A stretch of 64,000 nt of DNA from NCBI GenBank assembly GCA_025452255.1, contig CP104974.1:2148156-2212155 (forward strand). The letters are read 5' to 3'. A program made the translations under genes and the position numbers. Below the pieces are notes generated by a model that was not told the DNA's origin, did no database searches, and saw only the letters and a program-made list of their open reading frames with translations. This stretch comes from Devosia sp. A8/3-2 (lineage in GTDB: Bacteria; Pseudomonadota; Alphaproteobacteria; Rhizobiales; Devosiaceae). Each line of letters begins with the position of its first letter. The first letter of the stretch is position 1. Below, piece by piece: positions 623 through 63,008 of the stretch.

Positions 623-700
623 CGGAGTATAGCGCAGCTCGGTAGCGCACCTGCTTCGGGAGCAGGGGGTCGAGTGTTCAGAATCACTCTACTCCGACCA
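623..700 (+). tRNA. tRNA-Pro (anticodon CGG) with one extra base in the T-loop
   Basis: The acceptor CGGAGTA pairs with TACTCCG and is followed by A and an encoded CCA (698-700). The anticodon stem CCTGC/GCAGG holds a loop with CGG. The T-stem GAGTG/CACTC encloses eight bases (TTCAGAAT) instead of seven. Removing A680 restores the canonical TTCGAAT. The same CGAA-to-CAGAA change breaks many protein genes in this window, so the extra A is probably a sequence error, not a defective tRNA. A terminator follows at once. Confidence 0.93.
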
Positions 701-705
701 ATCAA

Positions 706-734
706 CCCCGGCCTTTCCAGAGGCCGGGGTTTTT
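706..734 (+). terminator. intrinsic terminator after tRNA-Pro
   Basis: A perfect 9-bp stem (706-714 with 721-729, CCCCGGCCT/AGGCCGGGG) with a 6-nt loop is followed by five T residues (730-734). It lies six bases after the tRNA CCA end and would end its transcript. Confidence 0.9.
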
Positions 735-1260
735 ACACCGACAGGTTTCCCCGAACGCGTTCTGGAGGCGTGTTTAGCCCACACCGAGTCCATCCCGTTG
801 TGAGTCGCTACTGAGGCTAGCTCTCAAACCACAACCTTGCGCCTGAAATCCTCCCGTGCCGCCATCAGCCGGGATCCGACCGATGGCCGAGGCGTCTTTG
901 GCATTCCGGGTCGCTCAGGACCTCAATATCAGTGACATGACGCTCGACAAGTACGTGGCCGACATTGTCCCCGGGCACCGAAGGAGGCGGGCACCTGCCC
1001 GCTCGGGGACGGCGCACCGAGTGGCGGCTTCGTTGCCGTCTGTCTTCTCAGCCCACGCCCGGTAGGCTCCTGATTTGGCGGGCGCGGAATGTCAGGAGCT
1101 CTTGGGACGACGCCTGGACTGAGACTTCCAGATTCGCCCAGATTGCACTTGAAGTGCGGAGATTAAGGTAAACCCCAAAGCAAAGTTGCGGACAAGTTGT
1201 TGGTAATATAACGTTGCTTTAGACTGTACTCGGTCGGCGTAGATCGGCAAGGAATGCGAT
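735..1260. other. intergenic stretch between tRNA-Pro and the polysaccharide locus
   Basis: Two short overlapping frames (856-1065, 965-1171) resemble no known protein, and I see no integrase or transposase. The last ~80 bases are AT-richer (TAATATAACG near 1205-1214) and probably hold the promoter of the epimerase gene. AAGGAA at about 1249-1254 is its ribosome binding site. Confidence 0.4.
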
Positions 1261-2210
1261 ATGAAGCAAGTACTACTTGCTGGTGGCTGTGGGTTTATCG
1301 GATCTCATCTGGCGGATCGCCTTTGCCGTCGTCAGGATATCACGCGCTTGGTGATAGTTGACAATCTATGGACCGGTCGGCTTGAAAATCTGGCTGCAAT
1401 TTCCGACCCGCGTGTCGAATTTGTACAGTCGGACGTGGAAACCTTCGCATCCGACACCAAGTTCGACGAAATCTATCATTTGGCGTCTCCGGCGTCCCTG
1501 CCTCAGTATATGACGCAGCCTTTGCGAACCATTTCGGCCAATGTCGTCAGCGCGCTCAATTTGCTCACGCTGCTCAAGCCGGGCGGCGTGATCGGCTACA
1601 CCTCGACCTCCGAAGTTTATGGCGATCCGGTTATCACTCCCCAACCCGAGACTTATCGTGGCTCGGTTGACTGCACCGGCCCCCGCTCGTCCTATGACGA
1701 GAGCAAGAGGTGCGTCGAGGCCATGCTGTTTGAAGCCCATCGCGTCCATGGGACGCGCGTCAAGGTGGCGCGCCTGTTCAATGTCTATGGTCCGCGCACC
1801 CGCCCCGACGATGGTCGCGCCGTCTCCAACTTCGTCACCCGGGCACTACAAGGCAAGCCGATTACTGTCTATGGCGACGGCTCCCAGACCCGCAGTTGGG
1901 GCCATATCGACGACATCGTGGAAGCGCTGGAGCGATATTTCTGGAGCGAGGGCACTGATTATCTGGCCCGCTCAATATTGGCAATGATCATGAAATTTCG
2001 GTGCTTGAAGTGGCTGAGTTCATCCAGAGCCATTTTCCCAAATCCACGATCGTATTCCTGCCGCCCGTAATGCAGGACCCGACTAATCGCCGCCCCGACT
2101 TGACCCTGTGCAACCAAATATTGCCGGGCTGGAAATGCGCCATCCCTTACGAAGAAGGGGTGCTGTTGAGTACGGAATGGTTCCGCAAGGACATGCTGAT
2201 CCCGGCATGA
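1261..2210 (+). CDS. NAD-dependent epimerase/dehydratase, UDP-glucuronate decarboxylase-like
   Basis: An extended SDR protein of about 316 residues that likely converts UDP-glucuronate to UDP-xylose, supplying a nucleotide sugar to the adjacent glycosyltransferases. The N-terminal NAD site is GGCGFIGSH (residues 8-16). The catalytic Tyr-Lys pair sits in SSYDESK, and GPRTRPDDGR and the YGDGSQTRS segment match the UXS subgroup. The frame breaks near 1968: the expected sequence NIGNDHEISVLEVAEF is encoded from about 1972 in another frame and runs to the stop at 2208-2210. Loss of one base in CTCGGCCCG would explain this. The start ATG is preceded by AAGGAATGCGAT. A 4,6-dehydratase or 4-epimerase role cannot be excluded, but the decarboxylase fits best. 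Confidence 0.85.
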
Positions 2211-2270
2211 TCGAGTGAATGTGGTCCAATTGCCATCGTGCGTCGCTGGCCAATATCTGTTGGAGCCTTG

Positions 2271-3102
2271 ATGTCAGAACAATCTGACCGGCAGGTTACG
2301 CTCATCACGCCGGACCGGTGGTCGATCCTCGCCCATCTCGGCGAAGTGTGGGCCAACCACGATCTCGTGGCGTTCCTGGTCTGGCGCGATATTAAAGTGC
2401 GCTATCGCCAAACCTTCTTCAGCGCAGCTCGGGCGCTGGTGCCGCCGTTTTTCACCATGGTAGTTTTCACCGTGATTTTCGGCACCTCGGTCAAGGTCAG
2501 GTCGGACGGACAGCCCTATTGGGCCTTCAGCATTTGCGCTGGCGGCTCGGAACTACTTTTCCCGGGCCCTCACCAACGCCGCCAACAGTGCCATCAACAA
2601 TGCCTCGCTGATCGAGAAGGTCTATTTTCCGCGCCTGTCACTACCGCTATCGGCGATCCTGTCACCGCTGCTCGATCTGGCGGTCGCCCTGACATTTTTG
2701 TTCCGGTACTGGCCATTGCCGGCATCATGCCCAGTGTGCGGCTGCCGCTATTGATTCCCCTGACGGCCATTGCCACGGCATCGGCCACAGGGCTGGGTGC
2801 GATTCTCGCGGCGCTGAATGTGCGCTATCGCGATGTCCGCCACCGGTTCCGCTGCTGCTGCAATTGGGTCTTTTGCCACGCCCGTGGTCTATCCGGCCAG
2901 CTCGGTTCCTGAAGCGCTGCGACCGCTGCTCGGGCTCAACCCCATGGCCGGCGTGGTCGAGGGTTTTCGCTGGGTACTGCTCGGCTCATCTACTAATCCA
3001 CGGCCGCTTGTAGCCGTCTCCGCCGTCACAGCTATAGCGCTGCTCGCCGGCGGCATTCTCGTTTTCATGCGGCTCGAACGCAGCTTTGCCGATCTCATCT
3101 AG
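2271..3102 (+). CDS. ABC-2 type polysaccharide export permease (Wzm/TagG family)
   Basis: This is the membrane subunit of an ABC exporter for a lipid-linked polysaccharide. The N-terminal part matches the family: LVAFLVWRDIKVRYRQT, then a hydrophobic segment FFTMVVFTVIFG. The next family block (RALTNAANSAINN...LIEKVYFPR) is present but in another reading frame. The C-terminal third (from about 2880) holds the TPVVYPAS and NPMAGVVEGFRW motifs and a last membrane helix. At least three indels break it, near 2540, 2698 (one T short in a T run) and 2845-2875 (again a T run). The intact length would be about 275 residues, usual for the family. ATG 2271 follows GGAG at 2262 and is better placed than the GTG at 2238. 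The ATPase gene follows 10 bases downstream. Confidence 0.85.
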
Positions 3103-3112
3103 GAACCGCTCC

Positions 3113-4364
3113 ATGCTGCCGGCAATCGAAGCTCGTGACATCGCCAAGCGCTATCGGCTAGGCCACAATGCCGGGGCCTCGACCATGGCCGAACTGCTCA
3201 GCGCCACGGCCAGCGCCATGCTGCCGAGCAAGCGGCGCAAGGCTCCAGGCAATGGCGTGCAGGACTTCTGGGCACTCAAGGGCGTTTCGTTCGAAATTGC
3301 CCCCGGAGAGGTCGTGGGCACGGTGGGAGAAAACGGTGCGGGAAAGAGCACCCTGCTCAAAATCCTGTCTCGTATTACCCCGCCTACGCATGGGTCAGTG
3401 AATTATCGCGGCCGGATCGGCTCATTGCTGGAAGTCGGCACGGGCTTTCATCCCGAGTTGAGCGGGCGGGATAATGTCTATCTCAGTGGCGCCATTCTGG
3501 GCATGCACAGAGCCGATGTGAAACGGCATTTTGAAGAGATCGTTGACTTCTCCGGGGTCAGAAGCCTTCATCGACACGCCAGTGAAGCGCTATTCCAGCG
3601 GCATGTATATGCGGCTTGCTTTCGCGGTGGCGGCCCATCTCGACACCGATATCCTGCTGGTGGACGAAGTGCTTGCCGTGGGCGACTACAAGTTTCAGCA
3701 GAAATGCCTCAATCGTATGGATTCCATCGCCCATGACGGGCGCACGGTGATCTTCATCAGCCATAGCCTCATCGCGATCCGGGCCATCTGCCGGCGCGCC
3801 ATATGGCTCGATCGCGGCACGATAGCTGCCGATGGGCCGACCGCCAGCGTCATTGCGCGTTATGCCGGAACTGAACATACCGGCGGCGGGATCGCGCGCG
3901 ATTGGCCTGATATGGACAAAGCGCCGGGCAATGCCGCGGTCCGCCTGCGCAATGCGCGGGTCGAGGCAGTTGGCGCCGAGCCGGGGGCCCCGATAGATGT
4001 GCGGCAGAGCTTCGCCATGAGCTTTGAATACGACAATCTGCGCGAGGGTGCCCATCTCAATGCGGGCCTCGTGGTAACCAACGAAGATGGTGTCGTGATA
4101 TTCGATGCCGGTCCCAATGAAGAGCCGATCGCAACGGCAATCGGCCGCCGCCACGAGCGCTGCGTGGTGCCCGGTGATCTCATGAACGACGGCACCTATC
4201 GGGTTTCCGTGGAGGTACGGGACCGGGGCGAAGTGCTGTTATCCATCCCCGATCTGCTCACCTTCGAAATTCTCGACAATCCGTATGGACGCTTTGGCTG
4301 GTACGGCAAATGGGAGGGTGCCGTGCGGCCACGACTGGACTGGACGAGCGAGAAACTCACATGA
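3113..4364 (+). CDS. ABC transporter ATP-binding protein with C-terminal carbohydrate-recognition extension (Wzt family)
   Basis: The ATPase partner of the permease just upstream, about 417 residues. Walker [10 protein letters not shown] is near residue 75, the signature YSSGMYMRL near 160, and Walker [14 protein letters not shown] follows. The H-loop is FISHS. After residue ~240 a second domain of ~170 residues follows, as in Wzt proteins, whose C-terminal domain in Escherichia coli O8/O9a reads the modified end of the finished chain. A single extra A at 3560 (GTCGAAGCC read as GTCAGAAGCC) splits the frame just before the signature motif. The stop overlaps the next start (ATGA at 4361). The two-domain layout suggests that the exported chain carries a terminal cap, and the next gene encodes a methyltransferase domain. 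Confidence 0.88.
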
Positions 4365-5922
4365 AGGTTTCCGTCATTGTCACCACCTATAATCACGCCA
4401 GATATTTGCGAGAAGCCCTCGAGAGCATCCGCGCGCAGACCTATTCCGCCGACGAAATCATCGTTGTCGACGATGGCTCCAGCGATCATCCCGAAACGGT
4501 CGTCTCCGAATTTGCCGGCGTCGAGATCATCCACCAGCACAATCAGGGTCTCTCCGCGGCACGCGACACTGGGCTCAAGGTCGCGCGTGGCCGCTACATC
4601 CTGTTCCTTGATGCCGATGATCGCCTCACCGAAATCGCCCCGGAAACGCTGGTCCGCCGCATTGAAGCGCATCCCGATTGCGGCTTTGTCTATGGTGCCT
4701 ACCGGCTTTTCGGCACACAGCCGGATTGGCGCAAGGAATGCGCTCTGCGGCCGATCGGACGAGACCCCTATCAGACGCTGCTGACGCAGAACTGCATCGG
4801 CATGCATGGAACGGTGCTCTACCGGCGGAATCTGCTGGCTGCCATTGGCGGCTTCGACACAGCGCTGCCGGCCTGTGAAGATTATGACGTCTATCTCCGG
4901 ATGGCGCATGGTCACGGTGTCAGTTGCGGGCCGGAAGTCCTCGCCGAATATCGCCAGCACGACAGCAATATGTCGTCCGATCTCGCCCGCATGAACAAGG
5001 CCGTCCGCCTTGTGCTGAGCAAGCAGAAGGCAATTGCCGACACCAACCAACTCTGGAAAGCGGCGCGCCAGCGCGGCCTGCGCTACTGGTTCGACTATTA
5101 TGGCTCAGCGCAACTGGGCCGCCTCAAGGCCGCTGTTCAGAACGGGTCAGCAGGTTGGCAAGTCATTCTCCCAGACCGCTTCGTTCATGCTGCCTTTTCC
5201 CGGTCCGGCCAGCCGGCTTATCGGCTCCGATCTCCGGCGCCTCCTGCGACGCCGGACCAAAGGCGATAGCCCGGCCGCGCGCGGTCCCTTTTCCGGCCTC
5301 GGCACCGAACGGGTCAGTACCGAATTTGGCTATGATCGCGGCAAGCCGCTCGATCGGCACTATGTCGAAGATTTTCTGGCGCGCCACGCGCAACTGATCC
5401 ACGGGCATGTGCTCGAAATCGGCGACACGGCCTATACAACCCAGTTCGGCGGCGACCGCGTGGTTTCAGCCGAGGCGTTTCACCGCTTCGCCGGGCAGCC
5501 GGGGGTTACCTATGTCGGAGACATATCCGGCGTGCATAACCTGCCGGGCGACACGTTCGATTGCATGGTCCTCACCCAGACACTGCACCTGATCTTCGAC
5601 ATGCCCGCAGCCATCGCGACGATCTGGAAGGCACTGAAGCCCGGCGGCTCCGTCCTCGTCACCGTTCCACTGGATCACCTCGATCGACAAGGGCGAATGG
5701 AATGCGACACGGTATTGGGCCATCTCGCCAGCCGGCCTGCGCAAGCTGCTGGAAACGCGGTTTGCCGCCAGCGACATCGTCGTCAATGCCTATGGCAACG
5801 TCCTTGCGGCGTCCGCCTTCCTCTATGGCTTTGCCGAGCATGAAGTGCGCCCGCAGGACCTCGACGTGGACGATCCGCTCTGCCCGGTCATCGTCGCGGC
5901 CAGTGCAAGGAAGGCCCTATGA
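4361..5922 (+). CDS. bifunctional family-2 glycosyltransferase/SAM-dependent methyltransferase
   Basis: About 520 residues. Residues 1-270 are a GT-A glycosyltransferase: [14 protein letters not shown] at the start, VDDGSSD for nucleotide binding, DADD as the metal-binding DXD, and GGFD and CEDYD in the acceptor region. Residues ~290-520 are a class I methyltransferase: HGHVLEIGD for SAM binding, [16 protein letters not shown], and [10 protein letters not shown], followed by [13 protein letters not shown]. Two indels interrupt it. One is near 5160-5180 in the linker, so the fusion depends on correcting that error. The other is an extra A at 5669 (CCCTGG read as CCACTGG), after which [10 protein letters not shown] and [15 protein letters not shown] continue to the TGA at 5920. 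It overlaps the genes on both sides by 4 nt. The likely role is adding and methylating a sugar of the exported glycan, possibly as the chain cap. Two adjacent genes remain possible. Confidence 0.75.
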
Positions 5923-6881
5923 GCACCCGCAGCGCCTTGGGCGGAACGGCGCGGACCGTCCGCCGCCTGCTGGGCACCGAGCGCCCGCTGATCCTGATGT
6001 ATCACCGCATTGCCGACCTCGACCACGACCCTTGGGAGCTGGCCGTATCGCCGGCCCGGTTCGCGATTCAGCTTGAGATCTTGCGCGCCAAACGCGATGT
6101 CGTGCCCCTATCTCGGTTGGTGGAACGTCTTGAGCGGGGGCAATCCGCTCCCCGCGCTGTCGCCATCACTTTCGACGATGGCTATGTCGATCTGCTGGAC
6201 AATGCCAAGCCTTTGATGGCGCGCTATACCTGTCCGGCCACCGTTTTCCTGCCGCCCGCTTTTGTAGGCCACCCCGGCGGTTTCTGGTGGGACACCCTGA
6301 CCCGGATTTTCTCGGCAACGCCGGACCTGCCTGCGCAACTGACGCTCGACCACGCCGGCAGGAGCACGGCCCGGGAAATGCGAGCCGATACACGCCGCAC
6401 CGTCCATGACGAAATCTGGGCCGTGCTCAAATTCATGGGCGACGCGGAGCAGGCAGGGCACCTTGCCACCACAGTGACATGGGCCGGCATTCCGGCCGAC
6501 GCACCCGCCAGCGATCGCTGCATGACCGAAGAGCAGTTGCGGAATTTTTCTCAGCCGGGCGTTTTCGACTTCGGCGCCCACACCATGAACCATCCATCGT
6601 TGCCGCAGCTCTCTGCATCGGAGCAGGCAGAGGAAATCAGCCGCAGCCGCAATGTGGATCGTTGAAACACTCGGCATCGAACCCCGGGGGCTCGCCTTTC
6701 CTTTCGGCGATTACAACAAGGAGACGCTGGCCGCGGCGCGATCGAGGCGGCGTACAGTTTGCCTGCACGACTGTTCCGGACGCCGTAAGGCGCCGCGCTG
6801 ATCGCTTTGCTATGCCGCGTGTCGCTGTTGGCAATCTGGATGCCGCCAGTTTCAGAACGTCTGATCGCCAGCCATGGCTGA
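5919..6881 (+). CDS. polysaccharide deacetylase (NodB homology domain)
   Basis: A carbohydrate esterase 4-type protein of about 320 residues, expected to remove acetyl groups from a glycan intermediate. Motif 1 TFDDGY (two Asp: catalytic base and metal ligand) is near residue 86. Motif 2 HTMNHPSL supplies the HxxxH metal site near residue 222. YHRI near the start is typical of the family. The frame is lost near 6650; the sequence then continues as IVETLGIEPRGLAFPFGDYN, with the family's FPFG motif, and is broken again near 6740-6790. The stop reached by the last frame (6879-6881) overlaps the next start at 6874. It has no signal peptide, so a cytoplasmic role during synthesis is likely. Confidence 0.82.
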
Positions 6882-7738
6882 GCCCCGGGTCAGCGCGATT
6901 ATCATCGTCTACAATGGTGCCCGCTATCTGGCCGAGGCGATCGACAGCGTGGTGGCGCAGAGTTTCCCCGATTGGGAATTGATCATCGCCGACGATGGTT
7001 CGAGCGACCGCAGCCTCGAAATCGCCCGCGACTACGCCGCTCGCCATCCCGGACGCATCCGCGCCATTGCCCACGCCGATGAGGCCAATCACGGCATGAG
7101 CGCCACGCGTAATCTGGGCATCGCCGCCGCTCGGGGGCGCTGATTGGTTTTCTCGATTGCGACGATATTTGGCTGCCGCACAAGCTAGCCGAACAGGTCG
7201 ACCTGCTCGATCGCCACCCCGACGCCCAGATGATCTATGGCCGCACCCTGATCTGGCATTCTCGGCGAACCGGCCAGACCGCTGACGATTTCTTCTACGA
7301 TCTAGGCACCGCACCGGACCGTGTCGTGGTTCCACCCGACCTGCTGACGGTCCTGCTGGAAAACCAGAGCCAAACGCCCACGACTTGCAACGCGTTGATG
7401 CGCAGCGCCTTCCTCCACGATCTGGGAGGCTTTGAGAGCCGGTTTCGCGGCATGTTCGAGGATCAGGTGTTTTTGCCAAGGCCCTGCTGGAGGCGCCGAC
7501 CTACATTTCTTCGCGCAATTGGGCGCATTATCGCCAGCACAAGGAGAGCTTCTCGGCCAAATCAGCCGGCAATGGCGGCGATGGCCGAGCGTATCTGGCA
7601 TTCCTCTTCTGGTTCGCCGCGTATGTCGTTCGCCGGACACCCCCGATTGGGCGTTCTCACCCAGCTTGCCCGCCTCGCAGCGCAAACATGCTGGGCCATG
7701 ATCAGGCCTCGCCGCCCCTCCGGCTGAGGGTTCGCTAG
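6874..7738 (+). CDS. family-2 glycosyltransferase
   Basis: About 288 residues with a GT-A fold. The start SAIIIVYNGARYLAEAIDSV, the ADDGSSD nucleotide-binding motif and FLDCDD (a DXD variant, DCD) are clear. GGFESRF and EDQVF follow in the acceptor region. Two indels break the frame: one C lost at about 7140 (CGCCTG read as CGCTG), which gives an early TGA, and one T lost in the run at 7471-7474. The last frame ends at TAG 7736-7738, touching the next start. The donor and acceptor cannot be told from the sequence. Confidence 0.8.
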
Positions 7739-8641
7739 ATGCCAAAGGTCTCCATCATCACCCCGGTCCTGAACGCCGAGCGCTTCCTGCCTGCGGCCAT
7801 AGAGAGCGTGATGGCCCAGACCGAGACCGACTGGGAACTCCTGCTGATCAATGACGGCTCGACCGATGCCAGCCCGGAAATCGCCGCGCTTGCCGCCGCC
7901 AGCGATGCCCGCATCCGCACGGTCTCTCGGCCCGCCAATGCGCGACACGGTGCCGCTGCGGCGCGCAATGCCGGCCTCGCGCTGGCCAAGGGCGAGTTCG
8001 TCGCCTTTCTCGATGCCGACGATCTTTACGAGCCGCATAAGCTCGAAACCGAGCTGGCCCTGCTGGCGGCCCATCCCGAAGCCGCAATGGTTTATGGTCC
8101 CACCCTATGGTGGCGCGACGGGGAGCGGCCCCGGCGCTGGGTCGAGCCGATGCACCGGCAGGCTAACCGCCTGCATAGGCCGCCCGCACTGGTCTCCAAA
8201 GTCATCCTGTCGCTCGATTGGCACGTGCCCTGCACCTGCGCGGTATTAATCCGCCGCTCGGCTATTGCCGAAATCGGTGGCTTTGAAGAGCAATTCACCC
8301 TTTACGAAGACCAGACGCTCTGGACCAAGCTGTTCCTGCACTATCCCGTTTTCATCCACGATCACTGCCTGTCGCGATATCGCCAGCACGAGCACTCCGT
8401 TTCCGCCGAGGCCATCAGGTCCGGGCAATATCAGCGCCATGCCGAGCATCGCTCCCGTGCGACATTTCTCGACTGGGTCGCGCAATATCTGGGTGACAAA
8501 TCGGCCCTCCGTCCAGCCTTGCGGCTCGCCCGGGCGCCCTATGCGCCGCCCGGCCTGCAACGCAGCGCCCACCTTGTCTATCTGCGCGCCAAGCAGGCAA
8601 CACGCCGCGTTGAGCGCTCCATTCGACGGTGGCGGCAATGA
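7739..8641 (+). CDS. family-2 glycosyltransferase (intact)
   Basis: An unbroken 300-residue GT2. KVSIITPVLNAERFLPAAIE opens the GT-A domain, INDGSTD binds the nucleotide, and FLDADD is the DXD motif near residue 88. IGGFEEQF and YEDQTLW follow, then RYRQHEHSVS, a motif shared with the other GT2 proteins of this operon. The C-terminal ~40 residues are basic. It overlaps the next gene by 4 nt (ATGA). This is one of few genes in the locus without a frameshift and gives a good reference for its codon use. The linkage formed is unknown. Confidence 0.9.
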   Translation: MPKVSIITPVLNAERFLPAAIESVMAQTETDWELLLINDGSTDASPEIAALAAASDARIRTVSRPANARHGAAAARNAGLALAKGEFVAFLDADDLYEPHKLETELALLAAHPEAAMVYGPTLWWRDGERPRRWVEPMHRQANRLHRPPALVSKVILSLDWHVPCTCAVLIRRSAIAEIGGFEEQFTLYEDQTLWTKLFLHYPVFIHDHCLSRYRQHEHSVSAEAIRSGQYQRHAEHRSRATFLDWVAQYLGDKSALRPALRLARAPYAPPGLQRSAHLVYLRAKQATRRVERSIRRWRQ

Positions 8642-9556
8642 CGCTCGTGACCGCGCTCATCGTCACCTACAATCACGCGGGCTTCATCGCCGCGGCCATC
8701 GATAGTGCACTTGCCCAGCAAACGAATTTCGATGTCGAGATCATAATCAGCGAAGACGCCTCGACAGACGGCACAAGGGCGATTGTGGAGGATTATGCAG
8801 CCCGCTTTCCCGGCCGCATCCGCCTGCTGCTGTCGGAGACCAATCTGCGCAGCAACGAAACCGTGGCCCGCGGCTTGCGTGCCGCCCGAGGGCGAGTTCG
8901 TCGCCCTGCTTGACGGCGACGATTGTTGGACGGCCACCGACAAGCTGCAGCGCCGAGCCGATTTCCTGCTGAACAATCCCGATTGCGCCGCCCATTTCTT
9001 CAACGCCACGATCATCCGGGGCACTACACCGGCCGACACCCTCTGGACGCCCCAAACCCAAGCCCGCCGTGTCGATCTGGCGCAAATCTGGCACGGCAAT
9101 CCCTATGCGACTGCCGCGGGAATGCTGCGCCTCGCCTCCATCCACGACGTACCCGCCTCGGTATCACGGCTTCTTCCCGCGTACCGATTGGCCGCTCTAC
9201 ATCCTCTGTGCGATTTCGGGCCTATTGGCGTTCGATCCCGAACCCGTCGCACTCTACCGGCTGCATGAAGGCGGCATGTTCAGCCCGCAATCGGAGGCGA
9301 GCAAGCTCGACAGTACTTTCGCCTTCCTCACCAGCATAGATCGATGCCTTGGCGGTCAATACCACGACTTGGCCCGCGCCGGCTGCTCGCGGCTGTTCTA
9401 CGATTGGGCCGAGGACTATCTGAGCAAGGACCAACCGCAATTATCACGGCAGGCTTTCGCCTATGCCCTGCGCGGCGGCGGCGTGGGGCAGATCGTGTCT
9501 GGGGCGCATTTGGCCGGCTCGGCTTGCGGCTCGCCAAAGCGTCGGTGCTTCAATGA
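8638..9556 (+). CDS. family-2 glycosyltransferase
   Basis: About 306 residues. VTALIVTYNHAGFIAAAIDS starts the GT-A domain, ISEDASTDGT is the nucleotide site, and ALLDGDDCW carries the DXD motif, here DGDD. An extra G at about 8890 (CGAGGC read as CGAGGGC) separates the first two parts. A second break near 9165 precedes YHGFFPRTDWPLYILCAISG and the ALYRLHEGGM motif. A third near 9500 is needed to reach the C-terminus GRLGLRLAKASVLQ and the TGA at 9554-9556, which overlaps the next start. The DGDD form with an asparagine/serine-rich acceptor region resembles rhamnosyl- and galactosyl-type GT2 enzymes, but specificity is not assigned. Confidence 0.8.
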
Positions 9557-10547
9557 GCCGTTCCCCCATCCTCGACATGCGCCATCGTGACGCCGTGAGC
9601 CGGCCTCCGCCCGATCAATCTGTGCCATTCTGGTCGGTGATGATCCCCACCTTCAACAGCGGCGATTATCTCAGGCAAACTCTGGCTAGCGTGCTGGCGC
9701 AGGATCAGGGCCCCGAGCGGATGCAGATCGAGGTCATCGATGATGCCTCCGACAGCGACGACCCCGCCGCCATTATTGCCGAGCTTGGCAATGGCCGCGT
9801 GCAATTCACCCGCCAGCTGCGCAATGTCGGCCACATCGCCAATTTCCACACCTGCCTGCAGCGCGCTCGCGGGCAGGTGGTGCACTTGCTGCATGGCGAC
9901 GACTCGGTCGAACCGGGCTTCTACGAAGCGCTGGAGCATGGCTTCCACGCCGTGCCTGAAATTGGCGCGGCATTCTGCCGGACCCGTTTTATCGATGAGG
10001 ATGGCCGGGATCTCGGCTTGACCGAACAGGAAGAGGACCATGCGGGCCCGCTGCCTGACCACAGGCGCGCTGGCGCGCGAGCAGCGCATCATGACGCCCT
10101 CCATTGCCGTGCGCCGCAGCGCCTACGTCGCGCTTGGGGGATTTGACCAGCGTCTCGTCTGCAGCGAAGATTGGGAGATGTGGGTTCGCATCGCCGCGCT
10201 ATCCCGTCTGGTACGAGCCCCGGCCGCTGGCAAAGTACCGCATGCATCTGCAATCCAATACCGGGCGCCACATCCGCTCGGGCGACGACATGGCCTATAC
10301 CCGTCAGGCCATCGATACCTTTGCCGACTATCTGCCGCCAGCAACGCGGCAGATAGTCATACCCACAGCAAAGCGAATCTATGCCCGTGCCTCGCTTGGC
10401 ATGGCGGACCGCATGCTGCGCTCGGGCGACATGTCGGCCGCACGGGCCCAGCTCTGGCAGGCCATTCGCCTCAATGCCTCGCCAGCCATTGTCTGGCCCG
10501 CCATCAAGATCATGGCACGAACCACGGCGGGAGCGCCCCAACGATGA
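9553..10547 (+). CDS. family-2 glycosyltransferase
   Basis: About 331 residues with a ~25-residue N-terminal extension before WSVMIPTFNSGDYLRQTLAS. VIDDASDSDD and LLHGDDSVEPGF give the nucleotide and DXD (HGDD) sites. TPSIAVRRSAYVALGGFD and SEDWEMWVRIA cover the acceptor region. The C-terminal ~90 residues are helical and include YRMHLQSNTGRHIRSGDD. Two frame breaks are seen, near 10050 and near 10205. The stop overlaps the next gene's ATG (10544). It is the fifth GT2 in the tightly packed operon, so the repeat unit of the glycan probably has at least five sugars. That is an inference. Confidence 0.8.
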
Positions 10548-13687: not shown

Positions 13688-13917
13688 ATTGCAACCACGA
13701 TGCCATGGTTCAAGCCATTGTCTGCAACCATAATATTTCAAATCTGCTTGCGAATGTGTTGATTTCGTCGAAGCAAAGGCGCGTCTCTCGCATCCCAACG
13801 TTCGCCAATGCTTCCGCGGGTCATGGCTTGGCCCTTCTTCACATCCTCTAAATCGCCGATGCCGTGTCGAGTGCCGGTAAGTCCGGTCCGGCATAGTTCT
13901 CGGCCATAAAGGCGCCC

Positions 13918-49492: not shown

Positions 49493-49670
49493 GATGAGCC
49501 CTCCCTCTGCTGTCGCGATACTAGCAAACGGCACTGTGCGCACAAAGCATCGTAGCTTGAGGCAGTTAATGGCCGGTGGCGGTGCCATATACGAAGTTGC
49601 ACGGTCATGGGCTTGCCCGACGCAGGGGCGGTCTTTAGAACGGTGCCGGGAGAGATAAGGGAGGATGACT

Positions 49671-51609: not shown

Positions 51610-51854
51610 TTCTCAGGCGTAAAAACAATCGCGGACGGAGACCCCAAGATCTCCGCCCGCTAAAGGCGTCAGCTTCATCGGCCGAAAGGTTGAAAAACGG
51701 CCTATGCTCCAAGTCGCCTGTGCCATCTATGCCATTGATGCGTATGAATTGGCATACCTCAAATGACGTATGCATGCGAATAGGGCGGCCGTCATTGTTT
51801 CGGCGGCTTTTTCCAGTGACGCTGTCGCCACGATTCTTCAAGCTGGATTTCCCC

Positions 51855-52939: not shown

Positions 52940-53076
52940 CCCGAACTGCGGCCAAAACCCGCATCCACGGGGCTTTCCCCAACCAAAACGGGCTAAGTGT
53001 TTCCTCTGGGGCCATCCCCAGATAAACTGCGCGTCGCCGTCCTCCCATGGATGGCGTGTGCAGGAGACTTTGCTTG

Positions 53077-53884: not shown

Positions 53885-54901
53885 TCGTTACCGACGCTCT
53901 GGCACCCGCAAATCAATGGCGTGGTGCGCACACTGGACACGCTGGGCCGCGAACTCGCCGCCCGCAATATCGAGGTCCGCTACCTCACCCCTGAGCGATT
54001 CTGGACCGTGCCGGTCCCCACCTATGCCGAAATCCGCCTCTCGCTGGCGACCCGGGGCGCCGTTGCCGCCTTTATCGATGGCGTCGCCCCCGATTGCATC
54101 CACATCGCCACCGAAGGCCCGCTGGGCTGGCAGGCGCGGCAATACTGCCTCGATCGGGGCCTGACCTTCACCACCAGCTTCCACACCCGCTTCCCCGAAT
54201 ATCTGGCCGCCCGCGTGCCGGTATCGCCTGAACTGGGCTATGGCTATCTGCGCTGGTTCCATTGGCCGGCGGCGCGCACCATGGTGCCAACGCCATCGCT
54301 AATGGTGGAATTGGCCGGCCACGGGCTGGGACATCTGGCCCTCTGGTCGCGCGGCGTCGATCTCTCGCGCTTCAGCCCCGGCCCCAAGACTCGGTTCACC
54401 GATCTGCCCGGCCCGCATCTGCTCTGTGTCAGGCGTGTCGCGGCGGAAAAGAACATTACCGCCTTTCTAGATCTGGACGTCCCCGGCACCAAGATCGTGG
54501 TGGGTGACGGCCCCGATCTGCCGGCGCTCACCCGCCGCTATCCGGATGTGAAATTCCTCGGCTATCGCTTCGGTGATGAACTGGCCGAGATCTATCGCAG
54601 CGCCGATGTCTTTGTCTTTCCCAGCCGCACGGACACCTTTGGCAATGTGGTGATTGAGGCCCTCGCCTCCGGCGTTCCCGTCGCCGCCTATCCGGTCACG
54701 GGGCCGCGCGATATCCTCACCGACCCGACAGCCGGTGCGCTTGACGAAGACACAGGCGCCGCTGTGCGCCGCGCCCTCACGCTCTCCCGTGCCGCTGCCC
54801 GGGCGCATGGCTGCCGCTTCACGGTTCCGGCCAGTGTGGATCAATTCGTCTCGCATCTGCATCCATCCGCACCCGCCGTCACCACGGCCGCTGCGGGCTG
54901 A
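53869..54901 (+). CDS. family-4 glycosyltransferase, Agt-like glycolipid synthase
   Basis: About 343 residues. RLLIVTDAWHPQINGVVRTL begins the GT-B fold (an extra base near 53899 splits DAWHP from INGVV); TEGPLGWQARQYC, TTSFHTRFPEYLA and LWSRGVDLSRFSP are followed by DVFVFPSRTDTFGNVVIEAL, the donor EX7E motif, and VTGPRDIL. The first codons lie over the PlcP end with no clear start, so the start is approximate. In Agrobacterium the Agt glycosyltransferase makes glycolipids that replace phospholipids when phosphate is scarce; PlcP supplies its diacylglycerol. That role is inferred from this pairing. Confidence 0.8.
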
Positions 54902-54980
54902 TCGTTGCTTGCGTCGAACACACTTGCGGCGCATTGTTCGTCACATTGATTTTATGTGATTTTCCCGGAGCCGTTCTGCG

Positions 54981-56200
54981 ATGGGTTCGCCTTTGGCAGC
55001 GCGCCTTAGTTCGCCCGCTGTGCGTACCAGTCTTTTCTACGCGACCCTGTTTACCTCGGGCGCGGTCTCCAATCCGTTCCTGCCGATCTGGCTGAGCAGA
55101 ACGCGGCATCGGCACCGGCGAAATCGGCGTCATCAACGCCGCGCCGATCTTTGCGATGATCGTCATCAACATGATTGTGGGGCGCTCGGCCGATCGGGCC
55201 AGCGATTGGCGCAATGTCATCGTCATCGGCTCCATCATCGCCGCCATCCCGCCGATCTTCCTGCTGTTCATGGATGATTATGTCGCCATCCTCATCATCT
55301 GGACCCTGCTGATCGTGCCGTTCCGGGCCATCGCCCCCGTGGTCGATGCCGCCGCCTATCGCATGACACGCCGCACCGGCATGGATTTCGGCGCCATTCG
55401 CGTCTGGGGTACGATCGGCTTTGTCGCCGTGACACTGGTGGCTGGCGTCGTGCTCGACCGCATGGGGGCAGGAGCCTTTGTGCCGCTGCTCATCGCGGTC
55501 AGCCTCATTCGTGCGCTGGTGTCGCTCGGCCTGCCGCTGTTTCGCTCGCCTGATGAGTATTCGCGCCCCATGCATCCCATCGATGCGCCGATCAACCCAT
55601 TGATCGCCATTCACTGGGCCAGCTCTGGCGCCCCCGGTTCCTGATGACGCTGATCGGCGCGGCGCTGCTGCATGGCAGCCACATGATGCAGATGGGCTTT
55701 GGCGCGCTGATCTGGGCCGAGGAGGGGATTCCCGGCTGGGTCATCGGCATCCTGTGGGCCGTGGCACCCACCGCCGAAATCCTCGCCATGGTCTATTTCG
55801 AGCGCATCACCAAGCGCTTCGCCGCCCGCCATTTGATCCTGCTCGGTTGCATCTGCGGCGCGTTACGCTGGTGGGGCTTTGCGCTCGAGCCCGATATCTG
55901 GGTGCTGGTCCTGCTGCAAACCCTGCATCTGGCAACGGTGGGCCTCACCTTCCTCGGTATCACCAATTTCATCGCCAATTGGACCAGCGAGGACATCGCG
56001 GCGGAGGCGCAGAGCTTTTTCGTGATGATCCGCCGGTGGTGACCGTGGTGGCGCTGCTGGGCTTCGGCGTGCTCGCCGGCACGATGGGGGCGGGGGCTTT
56101 CTATGTGGCGGCTATCCTCAGTGCGGTCGGGGCGGTGATGGTGGTTATCTCGCTGATCGTGATGAACCCCAAGCGCGAGAATGCGCAGGCGGTGATCTGA
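54981..56200 (+). CDS. MFS transporter (PPP/HcaT-like family)
   Basis: About 406 residues with 12 helices. SLFYATLFTSGAVSNPFLPIWL and GEIGVINAAPIFAMIVINMIVGRSADRASDWR start it; MDFGAIRVWGTIGFVAV is the central G-x-x-R-x-W-G motif of the family that includes HcaT and LacY-like MFS. FIANWTSEDIAAEAQS near the end is shared with the next gene. Indels: extra A at 55098 (CGAA read as CAGAA), one C lost near 55620, one G lost near 56032. Substrate unknown. Confidence 0.82.
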
Positions 56201-56336
56201 GGGGCTCTCGTTACTCCGTCACCGGAAAGCCGCATCCGCAATTGTAACGATTGCAACGTCACAAATCCCCTTGCCTTCGTCACAGAGCCAAGCGAACAAA
56301 GGTGCCGGGCGCTGATTTGCCCCGGGTTCACTTTTC

Positions 56337-57516
56337 ATGGCATCCGTTCTGTCGCGCTGGGCATCGCCCGAGCTGCGCGCTTCGATATTTCATTTCACGG
56401 TCTACCTGCCCGGCGCCGTCAGCAGCGTTTACACGGCGATCTGGCTGGCTGAACATGGCATCCCTGCCGAACAGATCGGCATTATCAATGCGTTGCCGGT
56501 CTTGCTGCTGTTGGGCATCAATATGCTGGTGGGGCGATTGGCTGATCGAGCCAGCGATTGGCGTTCGACCATCCTCATCGTCTCTCTGCTCAGCGGCGCG
56601 GCACCCATCGGTCTGTTCTTCGTCCATGAATTCTGGGGCATCGTGCTGGTCTGGCTGCTCTGCACCGTTCCCGGCGGGCTGGTACCCCTGCTGACCGATG
56701 CGGCAACACTGCGCCTCGCGCAGCGTACCGGCACCGATTTCGGCAGCATGCGCGCTCGGGGCACGATCGGCTATGTGATCGGAACGGCTCTTGTGGGCTC
56801 GGCCGTCACGGCCTATGGCACTGCCGCTTTCGTGCCGCTGTTCTTTGCCGTATCGGTTGGCCGCGCCATCATCGGCTTCACCCTGCCGCGTTTCCGCGCG
56901 CCGGCGCAGGTCTCGACCACGGCCGATGCCAATCCCGAAAAACCGCGGCTCTCCTCTGCGCTCAAGCTCTGGTTCGTGCTGCCCATTCTGGGCTTTGCGC
57001 TTGTCAATTCCAACAATGCGGTGGTGGGCGGCTTTGGCGCTGATCTGGCACGACAATGGCATTCCCGATTATTTCATCGGCCCCTTGCTTGCCGTGGCCG
57101 CCGCTGCGGAAGCCGTCCTCATGGTGATGTGGCGGCGCTTTGGCAGGCGCGTCACCGCGCGCAACATGATCTCGGTCGCCTGTGCGGCGTCGCTGCTGCG
57201 CTTCTTCATCATGGCGTTTAATCCGCCCGTGGCCGTGCTGTTCGTCACCCAGACGCTGCACGCCTTCAGTTTCGGCATGGGCTATTTCGGCGTCGTGCAT
57301 TTCATCGCCAATTGGACCAGCGAGGACATTGCCGCCGAAGCTCAGGGCTTTGCCACCATGCTGCAACAGGGCGCCGCCTTCGTGTCGCTGATGCTGTTCG
57401 GTGTTCTGGTCGGCCATTTCGGCGCCGGCGCATTCTTTGCGTCGGCGCTGTTTGCGCTGCTCGGCATGGGCTGTGTTCTGTGGTCGCTCAAGCTCAAGCC
57501 ACCCAAGGACGCGTGA
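56337..57516 (+). CDS. MFS transporter, tandem paralogue of the preceding gene
   Basis: About 394 residues with the same layout: FHFTVYLPGAVSSVYTAIWLAEHGI, ALPVLLLLGINMLVGRLADRASDWR, TDFGSMRARGTIGYVIGTAL and FIANWTSEDIAAEAQGFA. The shared ADRASDWR and FIANWTSEDIAAEAQ segments show that the two genes arose by duplication. One indel, a two-base loss near 57045 (GCGCGC-like run), separates residues 1-236 from the rest. A bidirectional terminator follows. Substrate unknown. Confidence 0.83.
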
Positions 57517-57530
57517 GGGGCACTCTCACG

Positions 57531-57560
57531 GTGTCATTCCCGCGGAAGCGGGAACCTCCG
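57531..57560. repeat. short palindromic repeat
   Basis: TTCCCGC (57537-57543) and GCGGGAA (57548-57554) flank GGAA and are preceded by GTGTCA, the same border as in the REP-like element at 18137-18236. It looks like half of that element. Confidence 0.6.
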
Positions 57561-57592
57561 TTTCCTTTCTTCACCGCCACACCCGCACAAAC

Positions 57593-57620
57593 AAAAAGGC
57601 CCCGGTTCCCGGGGCCTTTT
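57593..57620. terminator. bidirectional intrinsic terminator
   Basis: GGCCCCGG (57598-57605) pairs with CCGGGGCC (57609-57616) around a 3-nt loop, with AAAAA before and TTTT after. It lies between the convergent MFS and GPR-like genes and would end both transcripts. Confidence 0.88.
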
Positions 57621-57638
57621 CAATTTCTGCACCAAGCC

Positions 57639-60600
57639 TTAGCTCAGCCGCCCACTCGCATGGGCCGGGGTCGTATAGACCTTGCCGCGATCGCTCAGCA
57701 GGTATTCGCGGGTCTCGGCGGCAGGGCGGGGGCCGGCGGCGGCGCGTTTCAGCAGCTGCTCGAACTCGCTCATATACGCCTGCGCGGTGCGGGCAAAGTC
57801 GGGTTCGCGCTGCAGCTTCTTGCGCACATCGTCATAGGTGCCCCGGCCGGTCAGCGTATAGATGCGGCGCGAGAACACATTGGATTCCCCGGCACGGTAA
57901 CGGGCCCGGGCTTCGGCCAGCGCGGCGTCGTCGATAGCCCGGGCGATCTCGTCGGTCAGCCCCGACAGGCTGGCCTGCGGCTGCTGGGTGCTGGCCTGCT
58001 TGGCCGTGGCATTGCGCAACACGTCGCGGAGCCAGCCGCCTTCGCCCTGCGGGGTGGCATCGGCTTCCACCGCTGCACGGGCGTCGATATCGCGCTGCGG
58101 CGCTGCGGTGCGGGCAGGCTCAGGCTGACGCACGGGCTCGGTCGTGCGGATCGGATCGACCAGCGTCTGGCGCGACGGCTCGCGATAGGTTTCGCGCGGG
58201 GCCTGATAGGCCGGGGCTTCCCGGCGCGGCTCGGTGCGCAGGGCAGGGCGCTGCGGCGGGCGGCGGTCGTTGAGGTCGAGGGTCGCCGGCTGGCTGCGCA
58301 CGATGGCGTTGAGTTCGCTCAGCGCCTCGATCTGCTCGGCCACGACGCGGCGCATGGCTGCGGCGCTGGCGCAGGTTTCCTCGGGCAGCTCGTTGACGCC
58401 ACGGGCCAGCTCGGCGCGCGTGGCTTCGAGTTCGCTGCCGACTTCCTTGGCCGTCTGGCGCATGGCGCGGGCGGTGTCGTTGAAGCGCTGGGTGGCTTCT
58501 TCCATCGCCTTGTGCATTTCGGCGACCATCTGCTCCTGCGCCTGCTGCAAGGCCGCATTGGCGCGGCGGCCTTCGGCATCGGCACTGTTGCGGAAATCGC
58601 CGAGACGCGTGCTGACTTCGCCCGAGGTTTCATCCAGCGCCTGCCGGAAGGTGCCCGTGGTCTGGTCGATAGCGTTGCGCAACTGACCGGTATTGGAGGC
58701 GATGGCCCCGCGTACCGAAGCGGTCAGAATCCACGATGGTGTCGGCCAGCGTGCTGGTCGTCGTGGTCAGCACATCGGTGACATTGCCGGCGGTCGAGGC
58801 CAGCACATCACTGACGCGGTTGGCGTTTTCTTCCAGCGCATTGTTGACTCGGCTGGTCTGGTCGCTAAGCGCCACACGCACCGAGGAGGCCGTCTGGTTG
58901 AGGGCATTGGCGGCAGCTTCGGCGGCGCGCTGCACGGCGCTATCCACACAGGCGGCGTTGCTCGACAAGGTCGAGGTGAAGCGCTGATTGGTCTGGTAGA
59001 GCGCGTCGTTGACATCGGCCGTCGAGGATTGGATCGCCTCGGTAATGGTTGCCGTAGTGGCTTCCAGCGTTTCGGCAACCGAGCCGGTGGTGGCCTGCAA
59101 GGCTTCGTCCATGGCACGGCGGGCGCCGATCAGGCGGCGTTCCGTGTCGTTGACCGTATCGGCGATCGACTGCGCGAACATGCGCATGCGGCCATCGATA
59201 TCGTCGGCGCGGCTGGCAAAGCTCTGGGCCAGCGCATCCATGGCGCCACGGCGATCTTCCAGCGTAATGAGAGCGGTTTCGCTGGTCGAGCTGAGCTCGG
59301 TCGAAACCTGCTGCATATTGGCCGCTTCCGCATCGAGACGGCCGAGCACGGTCGAGAATTCGTCGACCATGGAGCGGATGGTGGATTGCAGCGCGCCCAC
59401 ATGCTGGCTGACCATGGTGCCAGCCTGTTCGGTCTGCCCAATGGCATCGCGAATGGTGTTGGAATAGGTCGAAGTCTGCTGGGCGACTGATGTCTCGGGA
59501 TTGGCGAGGTTCGCCGTCGAGGCATCGAGCACCCGCTGCAGCAGCAGGTTGGAATCGTTGAGCTTGCCGAGCGCAGCTGTGACATCGGTGAGGATGCGCG
59601 AGGTCGAGACGGCCATGATGGCCTCGGCCTCCTTGGCATTTTCGCCCAAGGCGTCGCGCAGCAGATTGCCATGGCTGAGCAGGGCGTTCTGCAACTGGTC
59701 GGAGCGATCGCTGACCAAGGCCGCAAAGGCATTGGTGTGCTCTTCGACCGAGCGGTTGATGTCGGTGAGGCGGGTTTCGATGCTGCCCACGGCGTCGGGA
59801 GCCTTGACCGTCAGCAATTGATCGATATTGCCGGCGGCAGCGCGGATCAGGTCAAGCACGCCGCGCACGGCGCCGTCCATGCGGTCGGCTGTGGCGATAA
59901 CGTCGGTGGCGATATTTTCCGTCGCCGCGGTGATGCGGGTGGCGATGGTTTCCTCGATCCGGTCGGCGCCGGCTTCCAGATCCGCCATGGATTGGGTGAT
60001 CGAGGTATTGATCGAAGCATTGAGCGCGGCCAGCCGTTCGGCCGTGATATCGGCGCAGGCGGTGATGGCTTCGGGCAGGGTGCCCGGGCGCTGGTCGACC
60101 ATGTCGGTAATGGCGCGACGGGCCGAATTGACGCCGCTCTCGATGAGGTCGGCGGCCTTGCGGGCGCTTTCGCCCACGGTGGCGCTGGCCGCGTCGATGC
60201 GAGCGGAAACGCCGTGCTCGGCGTCCGAAATGCGCGAGATGGCGCTGTCGAGGCCTGTGCCCAGATGCGTGTTCACCTCGGCAACCTTCTCGGCGATCAT
60301 GTCCGACATGGTGGTGACGCGCTCGTTCATCGTCTCGGTGACATTGTGCAACGAGGTCTCGATCTTGGTGCGGGCTTCTTCACCCTGCAGCGCGATGGCG
60401 TCGGCCAGCTCGCTAGTGCGCAGACCGATGGTTTCGCCCATCGAGGCGGTGTGCGTTTCCAGCGTGTCGGACAGGGCCTGAGTGCGCTGGTTCAGCGCTT
60501 CGCTGAGCGCCGTGGTGCGGGTGCCCACGGCCCGGGCCAGCTGCTGGGTGCCGCTGTCGAGGGTAGTGCGTAGCAAGGTCGAGCGCTCGTCCAGCGCGCC

Positions 60601-63008
60601 GGTCAGCGTGGTCGTGTGATCGGCCAATTGGCTGGTCAGGGTTTCGGTGCGCTCGCTCAGTTGGGTGGTGAGCAATTCGGTGCGTTCGTCGAGCTGGCTG
60701 GCCGGGTTCCCGGTGCGGGATTCGATTTCCAGCGACAGCGCCGAGGTGCGTTCCGATAGCGTATCGGCCAGCCGCGTCGTGCGGCCCGAGATCGCCTGAT
60801 CGAATTCGGAGGTGCCGGCCGACAGGGCTTGGCCCAATTCCCGGCTGCGCACGCGGATGGCTTCGCTCATATCGCTGGCGCGGGTGCTGAGCGTTTCGTC
60901 CAGTTCGAGCACACGGGTCTCGATGGCGCTGGTGATTTCGCCGGCGCGGCTGCTCAGAATGCCGTCGAGCTTCTGCGTGCGGCCGTCGAGGGTCTCGGCG
61001 ATCTGGTTGGCATGGCCTTCGAGCAGATCCACGAGGGCCCGGCTGCGGCTGCCGATGTCTTCGGAGATGGCGCGGGCTTTGGCGCCCAGCACTTCGCCCA
61101 ATTCGCGGGTTTTTTCGCTGATGGCGCTGTCGAAGCGGCCGGATTCTTCGTTGAGCGCCATTTCGAGCACATTGGCGCGGGCGGCAAAGCTGGTGCCCTG
61201 CGCTTCAAGGCGCGCGATCAGGCTATCGCCCTTGTCGCCGATAACGCCGTCAAGCGTGCCCGAGCGCGTGTCGAGAATGGCGGCAATTTCGGTCAGCCGT
61301 GCATCGAACTGGCTGAGCGAATCCTGCCCGGCCGAAGACAGCGTGATGCGGGCGCGGTCGGAGGTGTCGTCCAGCGCGCCGTTGATTTCGATCAGCGCCG
61401 ATTGCAGGCGGCTGTCCATGGCATTGAGCTGGATGGAGACCGATTCATCGAGTTGGCGGGTGAGGGCGTTGAGCAGCACCTCGGCCTCGCGCGAACGGCC
61501 GGAAATGTCGTCGGCGATCTTCTGGCCGATCAGATCCAGTGCGCCGGTCACTTCATGGCCACGGTCGCGCAACTGGCCCAGCAGCGAGGTGCTGCCGTCG
61601 CTGAGCAGGCCCGAAATGGTGGTGGTCCGCTCGTCGAGCGCTGCGGCCGAGCGCCCCGTCGTGTCGTCCAGCGTTTCGGACAAGCGGCCGGTCGTGCCAT
61701 CGAGCAAGTTGGCAAGCTTTTCGGCGCGGGCGTCAAAAGCCGAGGCCAGATTACCTGTGCGGCTGTCCATCGCCTCGGCGATCCGCCCGCTGGTGCCTTC
61801 TGAGCAGGCCAGCCAGATTGGCCGTGCGGTCTTCGAAGCTGCCGGTAATGGCGCCGGTGCGTTCCTCGATCAGGCGGGTGCGCTCGTCCATGGCGGCGGC
61901 AATGGTCGAGGCATGGCTGTCGAGGGCGTCGGTCAGCGCGGCAATGCGGCCTTCGACGCCCGAATTGAGCGTACCGGCACGCTCGTCAAGCGCGCCGGTC
62001 ATGGCCGCGGTCTTGTCGTCAAAGGTCAGCGACAGGCGGCCCGCGCTATCGTCGAGCGCCGAGATGAAGTCGGTGGTGCGGTTGTCGACCAACGAGACGA
62101 AATTCTCCGTCCGCTCGCCAAAGGCATTGGTCAGCGTATTGCCGGCCGTTTCCAGCGCCTAGGTCAGATTGCCGCCGCTTTCCACGATGGTCCCGGAAAT
62201 GCGCTGGCTGATCATGTCGAGATCGAACACCGGGCCCGTATGGCTCTCAGTGATGGCCTCGCACGCGCTCGGTATTGGTGAGCACGCTTTGCGCTGGCTG
62301 GCCAATTCGGCGATCAGCGCACGCATGCGTGATTCATTGTCCGAATAGGTGCGTTCGAGTGCGGTAACCTCGTTGTGGATCATCACTTCGAGTTCGCCGG
62401 CGCGCGAGAGGGCGCGTTCCAGCCCATCGCCCAGCGCATTGACTTCGCGGCGCACGGCCCGGCCCACCGAGGCGACCTTGTCGGCGGCGGTGACTTCGGG
62501 CTCGGCCGGGCAGAATGGCGGCTCGGGTGATCGAGGACGCGGCATTGCGCAGGTCCTGGGCGCGGCGGAACAGGGTGGCGACGCCGAAAAAGCCCAATAC
62601 GGGCAGGATCATGATGGCCGCGAGCGCGATGAAATCGATGCTGCTGGCAAACTGGCCGAAATTGCTCAGCTGGCTGCCATAGCGCAGATAGCCGGCCGCG
62701 CCCGTAGCCACGAGCCAGATGACCGAGAGCGCCAGCGCTACCCAAGTGGGGGCCGAGGATGAACGGCTCTGCAGCGTATAAAGCAGCTTGGAGGTGGGGA
62801 ATCGATCGTCATTGGCCACGGCGCCGGCCTGTTGGGCGATCTTGTCCGCAGCGCGCAGGCGCTCGGAACGCGCAGGATTGGCCGCGCGCTTTTCCGGGGC
62901 TTTTTCCGGCGTACTGTCGAGATTGAACACCGAGTCCTTGAGGGCGTCTTCAACGGCAGAAAAAGCCGAGGCGGCGGGATCGTTTGGGGGTGTCGAATTC
63001 TGCGCCAT
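57639..63008 (-). CDS. giant coiled-coil/apolipoprotein-like repeat protein, homologue of growth pole ring protein GPR (RgsE)
   Basis: About 1790 residues. Residues 1-100 are polar and acidic. Two membrane helices follow (VALALSVIWLVATGAAGYL and IDFIALAAIMILPVLGFFGV), then a giant helical region made of 11-residue repeats such as RTELLTTQLSE, RTETLTSQLAD, HTTTLTGALDE and RTTALSEALNQ. The C-terminal ~300 residues include a Pro/Arg-rich linker and a last globular part (SLSGLTDEIARAIDDAALAE and FARTAQAYMSEFEQLLKRAA). The layout, with an N-terminal anchor and apolipoprotein A1/A4/E-like repeats, matches the GPR/RgsE proteins that form a ring at the growing pole of Agrobacterium and Sinorhizobium. 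Indels: two CGAA-type insertions (58727, 61801) and one-base losses near 62245-62290 and 62520; CCAGG also reads CTAGG at 62161, giving a TAG. The start is ATG 63008. Confidence 0.82.

Follow-up and report, generated by a model that had tools for sequence, protein, structure and literature searches.

The window, by which we mean the whole stretch of DNA analysed (64,000 nt, G000:C1:2148156-2212155), belongs to a Devosia genome (G000) of 4.55 Mb in two contigs, C1 and C2. A tRNA-Pro, genes for an ABC transporter ATP-binding protein, a LacI-family regulator, a Gfo/Idh/MocA oxidoreductase, a family 3 glycosyl hydrolase and an MFS transporter, and the counterpart of a long coiled-coil-like protein lie along it, and each is interrupted by at least one extra base in the same short context. 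The sites in the window were aligned one by one with up to three relatives, namely G006, G041 (Devosia sp. LC5) and G042 (isolate AFS059704), whose identities over the aligned parts were 90.8%, 89.6% and 91.5%, respectively; the relatives alignable at a site are referred to as covering. The estimated completeness of G000 was 84%, compared with 99% for G006. Four blocks of the window (180-718, 1138-13766, 14659-33899 and 33965-64000) mapped to four separate places on C2 of G006, at approximately 327, 3244, 3078 and 2786 kb in this order, which reflects either rearrangement or misassembly.

Seventy single-base indels in the window were backed by every covering relative, four of them resting on one relative. 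Seventeen insertions of the form C[A]GAA were present (Table 1), and none was detected in the relatives across the window. The initial annotation had reported 14 or more places on both strands where removal of one base from CAGAA, or from its complement TTCTG, restores CGAA or TTCG. Thirteen of its 14 listed sites are one-base insertions in CGAA or TTCG at which all covering relatives are one base shorter, although the site given as 58727 lies at 58726, and four sites had escaped its list. At 21908 the extra base is present, but a restored CGAA is not supported, both covering relatives having CAAA. Of the two insertions described there as related, the one at 47328 was borne out as CGC[T]GAT, whereas the one at 45325 had been misplaced: TTCAGTAA is common to all three relatives, and the base actually inserted is the one at 45317, within a CCTGG. 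Differences in the flanks beside the gap were seen as well, including CGAG at 3560 in one relative. The coiled-coil-like protein of 1809 aa, which shows weak ZorA-like similarity, is encoded by a single open frame in G006 (L064:9370-14799); its counterpart in the window (approximately 57640-63055) is broken by indels that include three C[A]GAA insertions.

Table 1. Altered sites in the window, with window coordinates and the support of the covering relatives.
Position	Strand	Feature	Relatives
1..64000	.	CCWGG loss: 23 sites (0.36 per kb, observed/expected 0.13)	
679..683	+	CAGAA, extra A at 680, T-loop of tRNA-Pro (T-loop of 8 bases)	3/3 covering, one base shorter
3559..3563	+	CAGAA, extra A at 3560, ABC transporter ATP-binding protein (longest G006 ORF there)	2/2 covering
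6853..6857	+	CAGAA, extra A at 6854, absent from the initial list	2/2 covering
21891..21895	+	CAGAA, extra A at 21892, LacI-family regulator	2/2 covering
21907..21911	+	CAGAA, extra base at 21908 or 21909	2/2 covering, one base shorter; CAAA
24098..24102	-	TTCTG, extra T at 24101, Gfo/Idh/MocA oxidoreductase	2/2 covering
34797..34801	-	TTCTG, extra T at 34800; longest G006 ORF 605 aa, no family, frame uncertain	3/3
35287..35291	+	CAGAA, extra A at 35288, same 605-aa G006 ORF as 34800	3/3, one base shorter; TGAA in G041
39058..39062	-	TTCTG, extra T at 39061; longest G006 ORF 560 aa, no family, frame uncertain	3/3
39594..39598	+	CAGAA, extra A at 39595, same 560-aa G006 ORF as 39061	3/3; CGAG in two
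42187..42191	-	TTCTG, extra T at 42190, absent from the initial list	3/3
45315..45321	.	CCACCGG, extra base at 45317	3/3; CCCTGG (contains CCTGG)
47325..47331	.	CGC[T]GAT, insertion outside CGAA (47328)	3/3
52906..52910	+	CAGAA, extra A at 52907, glycosyl hydrolase family 3	3/3
53383..53387	+	CAGAA, extra A at 53384; longest G006 ORF 241 aa, no family, frame uncertain	3/3
55097..55101	+	CAGAA, extra A at 55098, MFS transporter	3/3; CGAG in all three
58725..58729	+	CAGAA, extra A at 58726, 1809-aa coiled-coil-like protein in G006	3/3
61798..61802	-	TTCTG, extra T at 61801, same 1809-aa G006 protein as 58726	3/3
62511..62515	+	CAGAA, extra A at 62512, 1809-aa G006 protein, absent from the initial list	3/3
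63387..63391	-	TTCTG, extra T at 63390, absent from the initial list	3/3

Two larger samples were aligned to G006. The first (264 kb, including an extension beyond the window) gave 237,690 aligned bases, and the second, a separate 400-kb region picked by tRNA synteny that begins 0.5 Mb past the first, gave 308,539; together they make 546 kb, or approximately 12% of the genome. Before counting, longer indels were excluded, as were single-base ones whose flanks matched poorly (512 fell to 367 in the first sample). C[A]GAA was the commonest single-base insertion over the 546 kb (126 of 454). It accounted for 45 of the 174 single-base insertions and 45 of the 367 well-flanked single-base indels in the first sample, split 19 to 26 between the strands, and for 81 of 280 insertions and 81 of 526 indels in the second. 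In the first sample, 51 insertion events overlapped CGAA, compared with 5.5 expected from the frequency of CGAA, and the excess recurred in the second sample, in line with the earlier argument that random error would not choose one context so often. When any insertion within the motif was counted, 51 of 2,303 CGAA sites of G006 were altered in G000 in the first sample and 86 of 3,323 in the second; in the reverse control, insertions in G006 were seen at 6 of 2,217 and 5 of 3,172 sites, respectively. The effect is partial, as had been proposed, since only 126 of 4,472 CGAA sites in both samples carry the C[A]GAA insertion. In addition, 39 of the 45 insertions in the first sample were in coding DNA, which is near the coding fraction of 83-86%. 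An indel table lacking a CGAA excess had been named in the initial annotation as a refuting outcome; the table over 546 kb shows the excess and does not refute the proposal.

The same extra base was found in tRNAs. G000 has 45 tRNA matches (44 above the family cut-off), and seven of the 45, at places between 0.21 and 4.02 Mb, carry an additional base between the C and the G of TTCGA, which gives them an abnormal T-loop of eight bases. No eight-base T-loop was seen among the 26 classified tRNAs of G006, out of 28 examined among its 48 tRNA matches; one of the two unclassified tRNAs had a normal TTCGAA and the other had been mis-oriented by the script. A further tRNA on the minus strand of the window (374-447), with a two-base anticodon, was left untyped by ARAGORN; at 414, three relatives are longer by one base. 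The view that a systematic basecalling or consensus fault is at work is well upheld by the excess in one context, which the relatives hardly show, by the insertions' failure to avoid coding DNA and by the broken T-loops.

The larger and dominant fault, which is absent from the initial annotation, is the loss of CCWGG. Only 92 of 1,819 CCWGG sites of G006 were intact in G000 (40 of 782 in the first sample and 52 of 1,037 in the second), whereas control motifs were intact at 62-72% of sites, for example CCCGG at 459 of 737 and 619 of 943 and CTGCC at 474 of 729 and 744 of 1,040 (the control CAGCC was counted in the second region only). The readings of G000 at these CCWGG sites were CCGGG (224 and 302 times), CCGAG (138 and 173) and CCGTG (51 and 71). 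CCGGG and CCGAG are the two commonest, and CCGAG represents a two-base change. The observed/expected ratio of CCWGG was 0.13-0.21 in four samples of G000, one of them from the second contig, in contrast to 0.74-0.84 (3.3-3.7 per kb) in the three relatives. No other substitution-producing motif of comparable strength was found in the alignments of G000 and G006. Outside CCWGG, a mild asymmetry was observed for CGCG, which was lost 715 times in G000 and 513 times in G006.

The fractions of CCWGG substitutions at codon positions 1, 2 and 3 were 0.29, 0.35 and 0.35 in the first sample and 0.27, 0.35 and 0.37 in the second. In contrast, the fractions were 0.29, 0.12 and 0.59 for all substitutions in the first sample, and 0.25-0.29, 0.09-0.13 and 0.60-0.63 for four control motifs in the second; codon positions were assigned from the longest ORFs of G006, some frames of which are wrong, and the controls still show the third-position excess. 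The CCWGG changes are thus spread almost evenly over codon positions, which indicates that selection never saw them and that their pattern is one of miscalls and not of evolution.

EcoRII recognises CCWGG. An EcoRII-type restriction-modification locus with a Vsr-like gene is present on the 515-kb second contig (L114:10762-13876, G000:C2:146762-149876), where genes for an EcoRII endonuclease, a Vsr-like mismatch endonuclease and a Dcm-like methylase lie side by side. The endonuclease (407 aa) has both the N- and the C-terminal domain (PF09217 and PF09019) and matched PDB 1na6 over residues 5-402 with an E value of 3.6e-97. The gene of the Dcm-like methylase is split over two frames in the assembly; two pieces matched PRK10458 with 204 and 133 bits (the whole-protein cut-off is 710), and one piece passed TIGR00675. 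Of the four genomes, G000 alone gave a match to PF09019 (EcoRII-C), with none in G006, G041 or G042. G006 has a C5 methylase of PF00145, which is a different enzyme, 30% identical over 132 residues and only marginally PRK10458-like; G042 also has a PF00145 match, and G041 has none. G000 thus holds a modification system that matches CCWGG, and its EcoRII-C domain is not found in the three relatives, which lack the errors. This locus is the likely source of a CCWGG mark, its methylase being presumed active.

Taken together, we consider it about 90% probable that these changes are consensus errors and not the DNA of the organism, with CCWGG methylation as their main source. The assembly would have been made from native (unamplified) long reads without short-read correction, most likely from Oxford Nanopore sequencing. 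In the larger fault, 5-methylcytosine at CCWGG, very probably placed by the EcoRII/Dcm-type methylase of the second contig, would be misread at most sites. In the smaller one, a base would be put between the C and the G of CGAA, depending mainly on about eight bases round the site and most strongly at TCGAATC; this may be a weakness of the basecaller for a k-mer that is worsened where the adenine is methylated. The CGAA part may stem from a plain k-mer weakness, from an aggravation by CcrM or from another mark.

The rate of insertion varied with the preceding base, being 71 of 1,265 (5.6%) at TCGAA, 37 of 1,157 at GCGAA, 8 of 662 at ACGAA and 10 of 1,388 at CCGAA; the avoidance of CCGAA was sharp in the first sample (1 of 579) and milder in the second (9 of 809). 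The highest rates were seen at CGAATC (25 of 98, 25.5%), TCGAATC (16 of 38) and TCGAATCG (9 of 14). Positions -3, -2, +3 and +4 held most of the signal, and a model on -3 to +4 reached an AUC of 0.80, compared with at most 0.84 for wider contexts. Weaker signals were present at +6 (p 8e-6) and +9 (p 9e-7), which may reflect codon phase, and also at +8 and -8. No extended, fixed 6-7 bp or bipartite motif round CGAA was found within 45 bases on each side, and triples of positions from -14 to +18 gave no recognition motif.

The main dependence on -3 to +4 fits the k-mer of a pore, and together with the lack of a fixed motif and the near immunity of other CGANTC sites (see below), it favours a plain k-mer weakness of the basecaller or polisher, by which no DNA mark is involved at CGAA and methylation accounts for the CCWGG part only. 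We give this explanation slightly less than an even chance. It leaves over the signals at +6 and +9, and it does not by itself account for the rate at CGAATC, which is far above that at CGAATA, CGAATG and CGAATT (12 of 684; Fisher p 8e-16) and would be explained naturally by a CcrM mark. In addition, the broken T-loop 14-mer occurred in six of 397 genomes of the order and inside a tRNA in G000 only, which is a weak control since few of the 397 may be nanopore-only assemblies.

G000 has a CcrM-like ORF of 312 aa (E 8e-159; 528 bits, the cut-off being 830, with the first 48 profile positions missing), and the CcrM site, GANTC, overlaps with CGAATC. The other CcrM-site overlaps, counted over the whole samples, were almost unaffected: CGACTC had no insertion (136 sites intact), CGAGTC had one (197 intact) and CGATTC had none (197 intact), which makes 1 of 531 for CGANTC other than CGAATC. 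CcrM alone as the cause of the CGAA insertions was ruled out on this ground. Since these sites are intact and the rate is raised also at contexts that are no CcrM sites (CGAAAC, 21 of 249; CGAACG, 16 of 210), CcrM methylation may worsen the fault but is not enough to produce it. CcrM-like genes are also present in G006 and G042, whose assemblies do not have such errors; therefore, CcrM would act only jointly with the sequencing method. An aggravation of this kind is conceivable, and we rate it at roughly one in three. The modified base in the CGAA context proposed in the initial annotation accordingly has the jump in rate at CGAATC in its favour, and the intact CGACTC, CGAGTC and CGATTC sites and the lack of an identified CGAA-specific methylase against it.

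Four methylase-related families (PF00145, PF01555, PF02384 and PF01507) were searched genome-wide, and no CGAA-specific enzyme was identified among them. Two candidates of PF02384, a family without a match in G006, G041 and G042, were found on C2 of G000. One is a DrdV-like enzyme (PDB 7lo5) in one open frame (C2:298503-301418, L115:10503 to L116:1418); the other is a methylase with a weak likeness to TaqI (C2:308544-309860; E 4e-8 over 158 residues). The neighbours of the DrdV-like gene encode an HTH/IrrE-type protein matching the RmrA models of PADLOC and a weakly CARF-like protein, and the neighbourhood is possibly a defence region. PF01555, the beta-class family, is matched twice in G000, by the CcrM-like gene and by a methylase of 335 aa that fits PADLOC type II models; neither is of type III. 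A beta-class methylase at C1:3457291-3458298 adjoins a protein that matches only the DnaA C-terminal helix-turn-helix in Pfam (G000:C1:3456462-3458298, L117:8462-10298). In this family, G006 and G042 have only the CcrM-like match, and G041 has three further ones. DNA phosphorothioation (Dnd/Ssp) was set aside on the search with PF01507 (DndC-like): both matches in G000 have similar-scoring counterparts in all three relatives, and no DndC-like sulfurtransferase beyond this set was seen.

These enzymes suggest a dedicated adenine methylase of G000 that would mark CGAA on one strand, so that errors would be confined to the reads of one strand and the consensus would mostly survive. The DrdV-like and TaqI-like candidates and the beta-class methylase on C1, with the restricted family content of the relatives, speak for it. 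Type IIL motifs are 6-7 bp long; the errors need little beyond KCGAA, no extended motif emerged, and the similarity to TaqI is slight, all of which weighs against it, and we regard such a methylase as unlikely. According to the part of PMC11842806 drawn on here, DrdV belongs to type IIL, and systems of types IIL, ISP and III place their mark on one strand. A previously undescribed adenine mark on one strand of (K)CGAA, the product of a methylase for which no counterpart was found in the relatives, is likewise improbable; if it were true, the insertion errors would map the mark unintentionally, much as the CCWGG losses seem to do for the EcoRII-type locus. Finally, that the changes are real, arising by mutation at methylated sites, motif avoidance after acquisition of EcoRII or programmed frameshifting, is barely credible: the presence of an EcoRII system could put unprotected CCWGG at a selective disadvantage, and the motif is rare where C1 and C2 were sampled, but the CCWGG changes are blind to codon position, CCAGG to CCGAG takes two changes and was nevertheless frequent, eight-base T-loops in seven tRNAs are not expected to work, and the share of insertions in coding DNA is close to that expected by chance.

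With consensus error as the preferred reading, G000 is a case of sequencing error whose pseudogenes, broken tRNAs and low completeness are not to be taken as biology. The comparison of a suspect assembly with a clean relative revealed a likely methylation motif, CCWGG, and linked it to a restriction-modification locus without reads, and the codon-position test tells miscalls from evolution.

No report of C[A]GAA insertions was found among the literature matches listed, and the portion of PMC11649196 available held nothing on the CGAA context; the comparisons below likewise rest on parts of the papers cited. HinfIII, a type III system that recognises CGAAT and marks one strand (PMC3874151), resembles the present case in that its site contains CGAA. 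Unlike its site, the insertions in G000 extend beyond CGAAT, and neither PF01555 match of G000 is of type III; a HinfIII-like specificity was ruled out because CGAAC, CGAAA and CGAAG are also affected. The ambiguous RACG/CGTY positions of Klebsiella (Lohde et al. 2024, PMC11610573) are similar in their short context, for which the authors found, in the part cited, no fitting methylation motif, and in that only some positions become assembly errors; those are two-base ambiguities, whereas the CGAA errors of G000 are insertions. In Listeria, errors at GCAGC/GCTGG (Chiou et al. 2023, PMC10687267) likewise tie short motifs to lineage-specific modification and are exposed by relatives; they were counted as mismatches, in contrast to the insertions at CGAA, for which no enzyme has been identified. 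The closest parallel to the CCWGG fault is that of Dcm motifs. Wick et al. (2019, PMC6591954) attributed approximately 70% of the consensus errors of the then-current ONT basecallers in K. pneumoniae to these motifs, the errors gathering in CCAGG/CCTGG because the basecaller had no training on the mark. The present case differs in that approximately 95% of the alignable CCWGG sites of G000 differ from G006, against roughly a third of sites expected from divergence alone according to the control motifs, that the locus is of EcoRII type and in Devosia, and that a second context, CGAA, adds single-base insertions.
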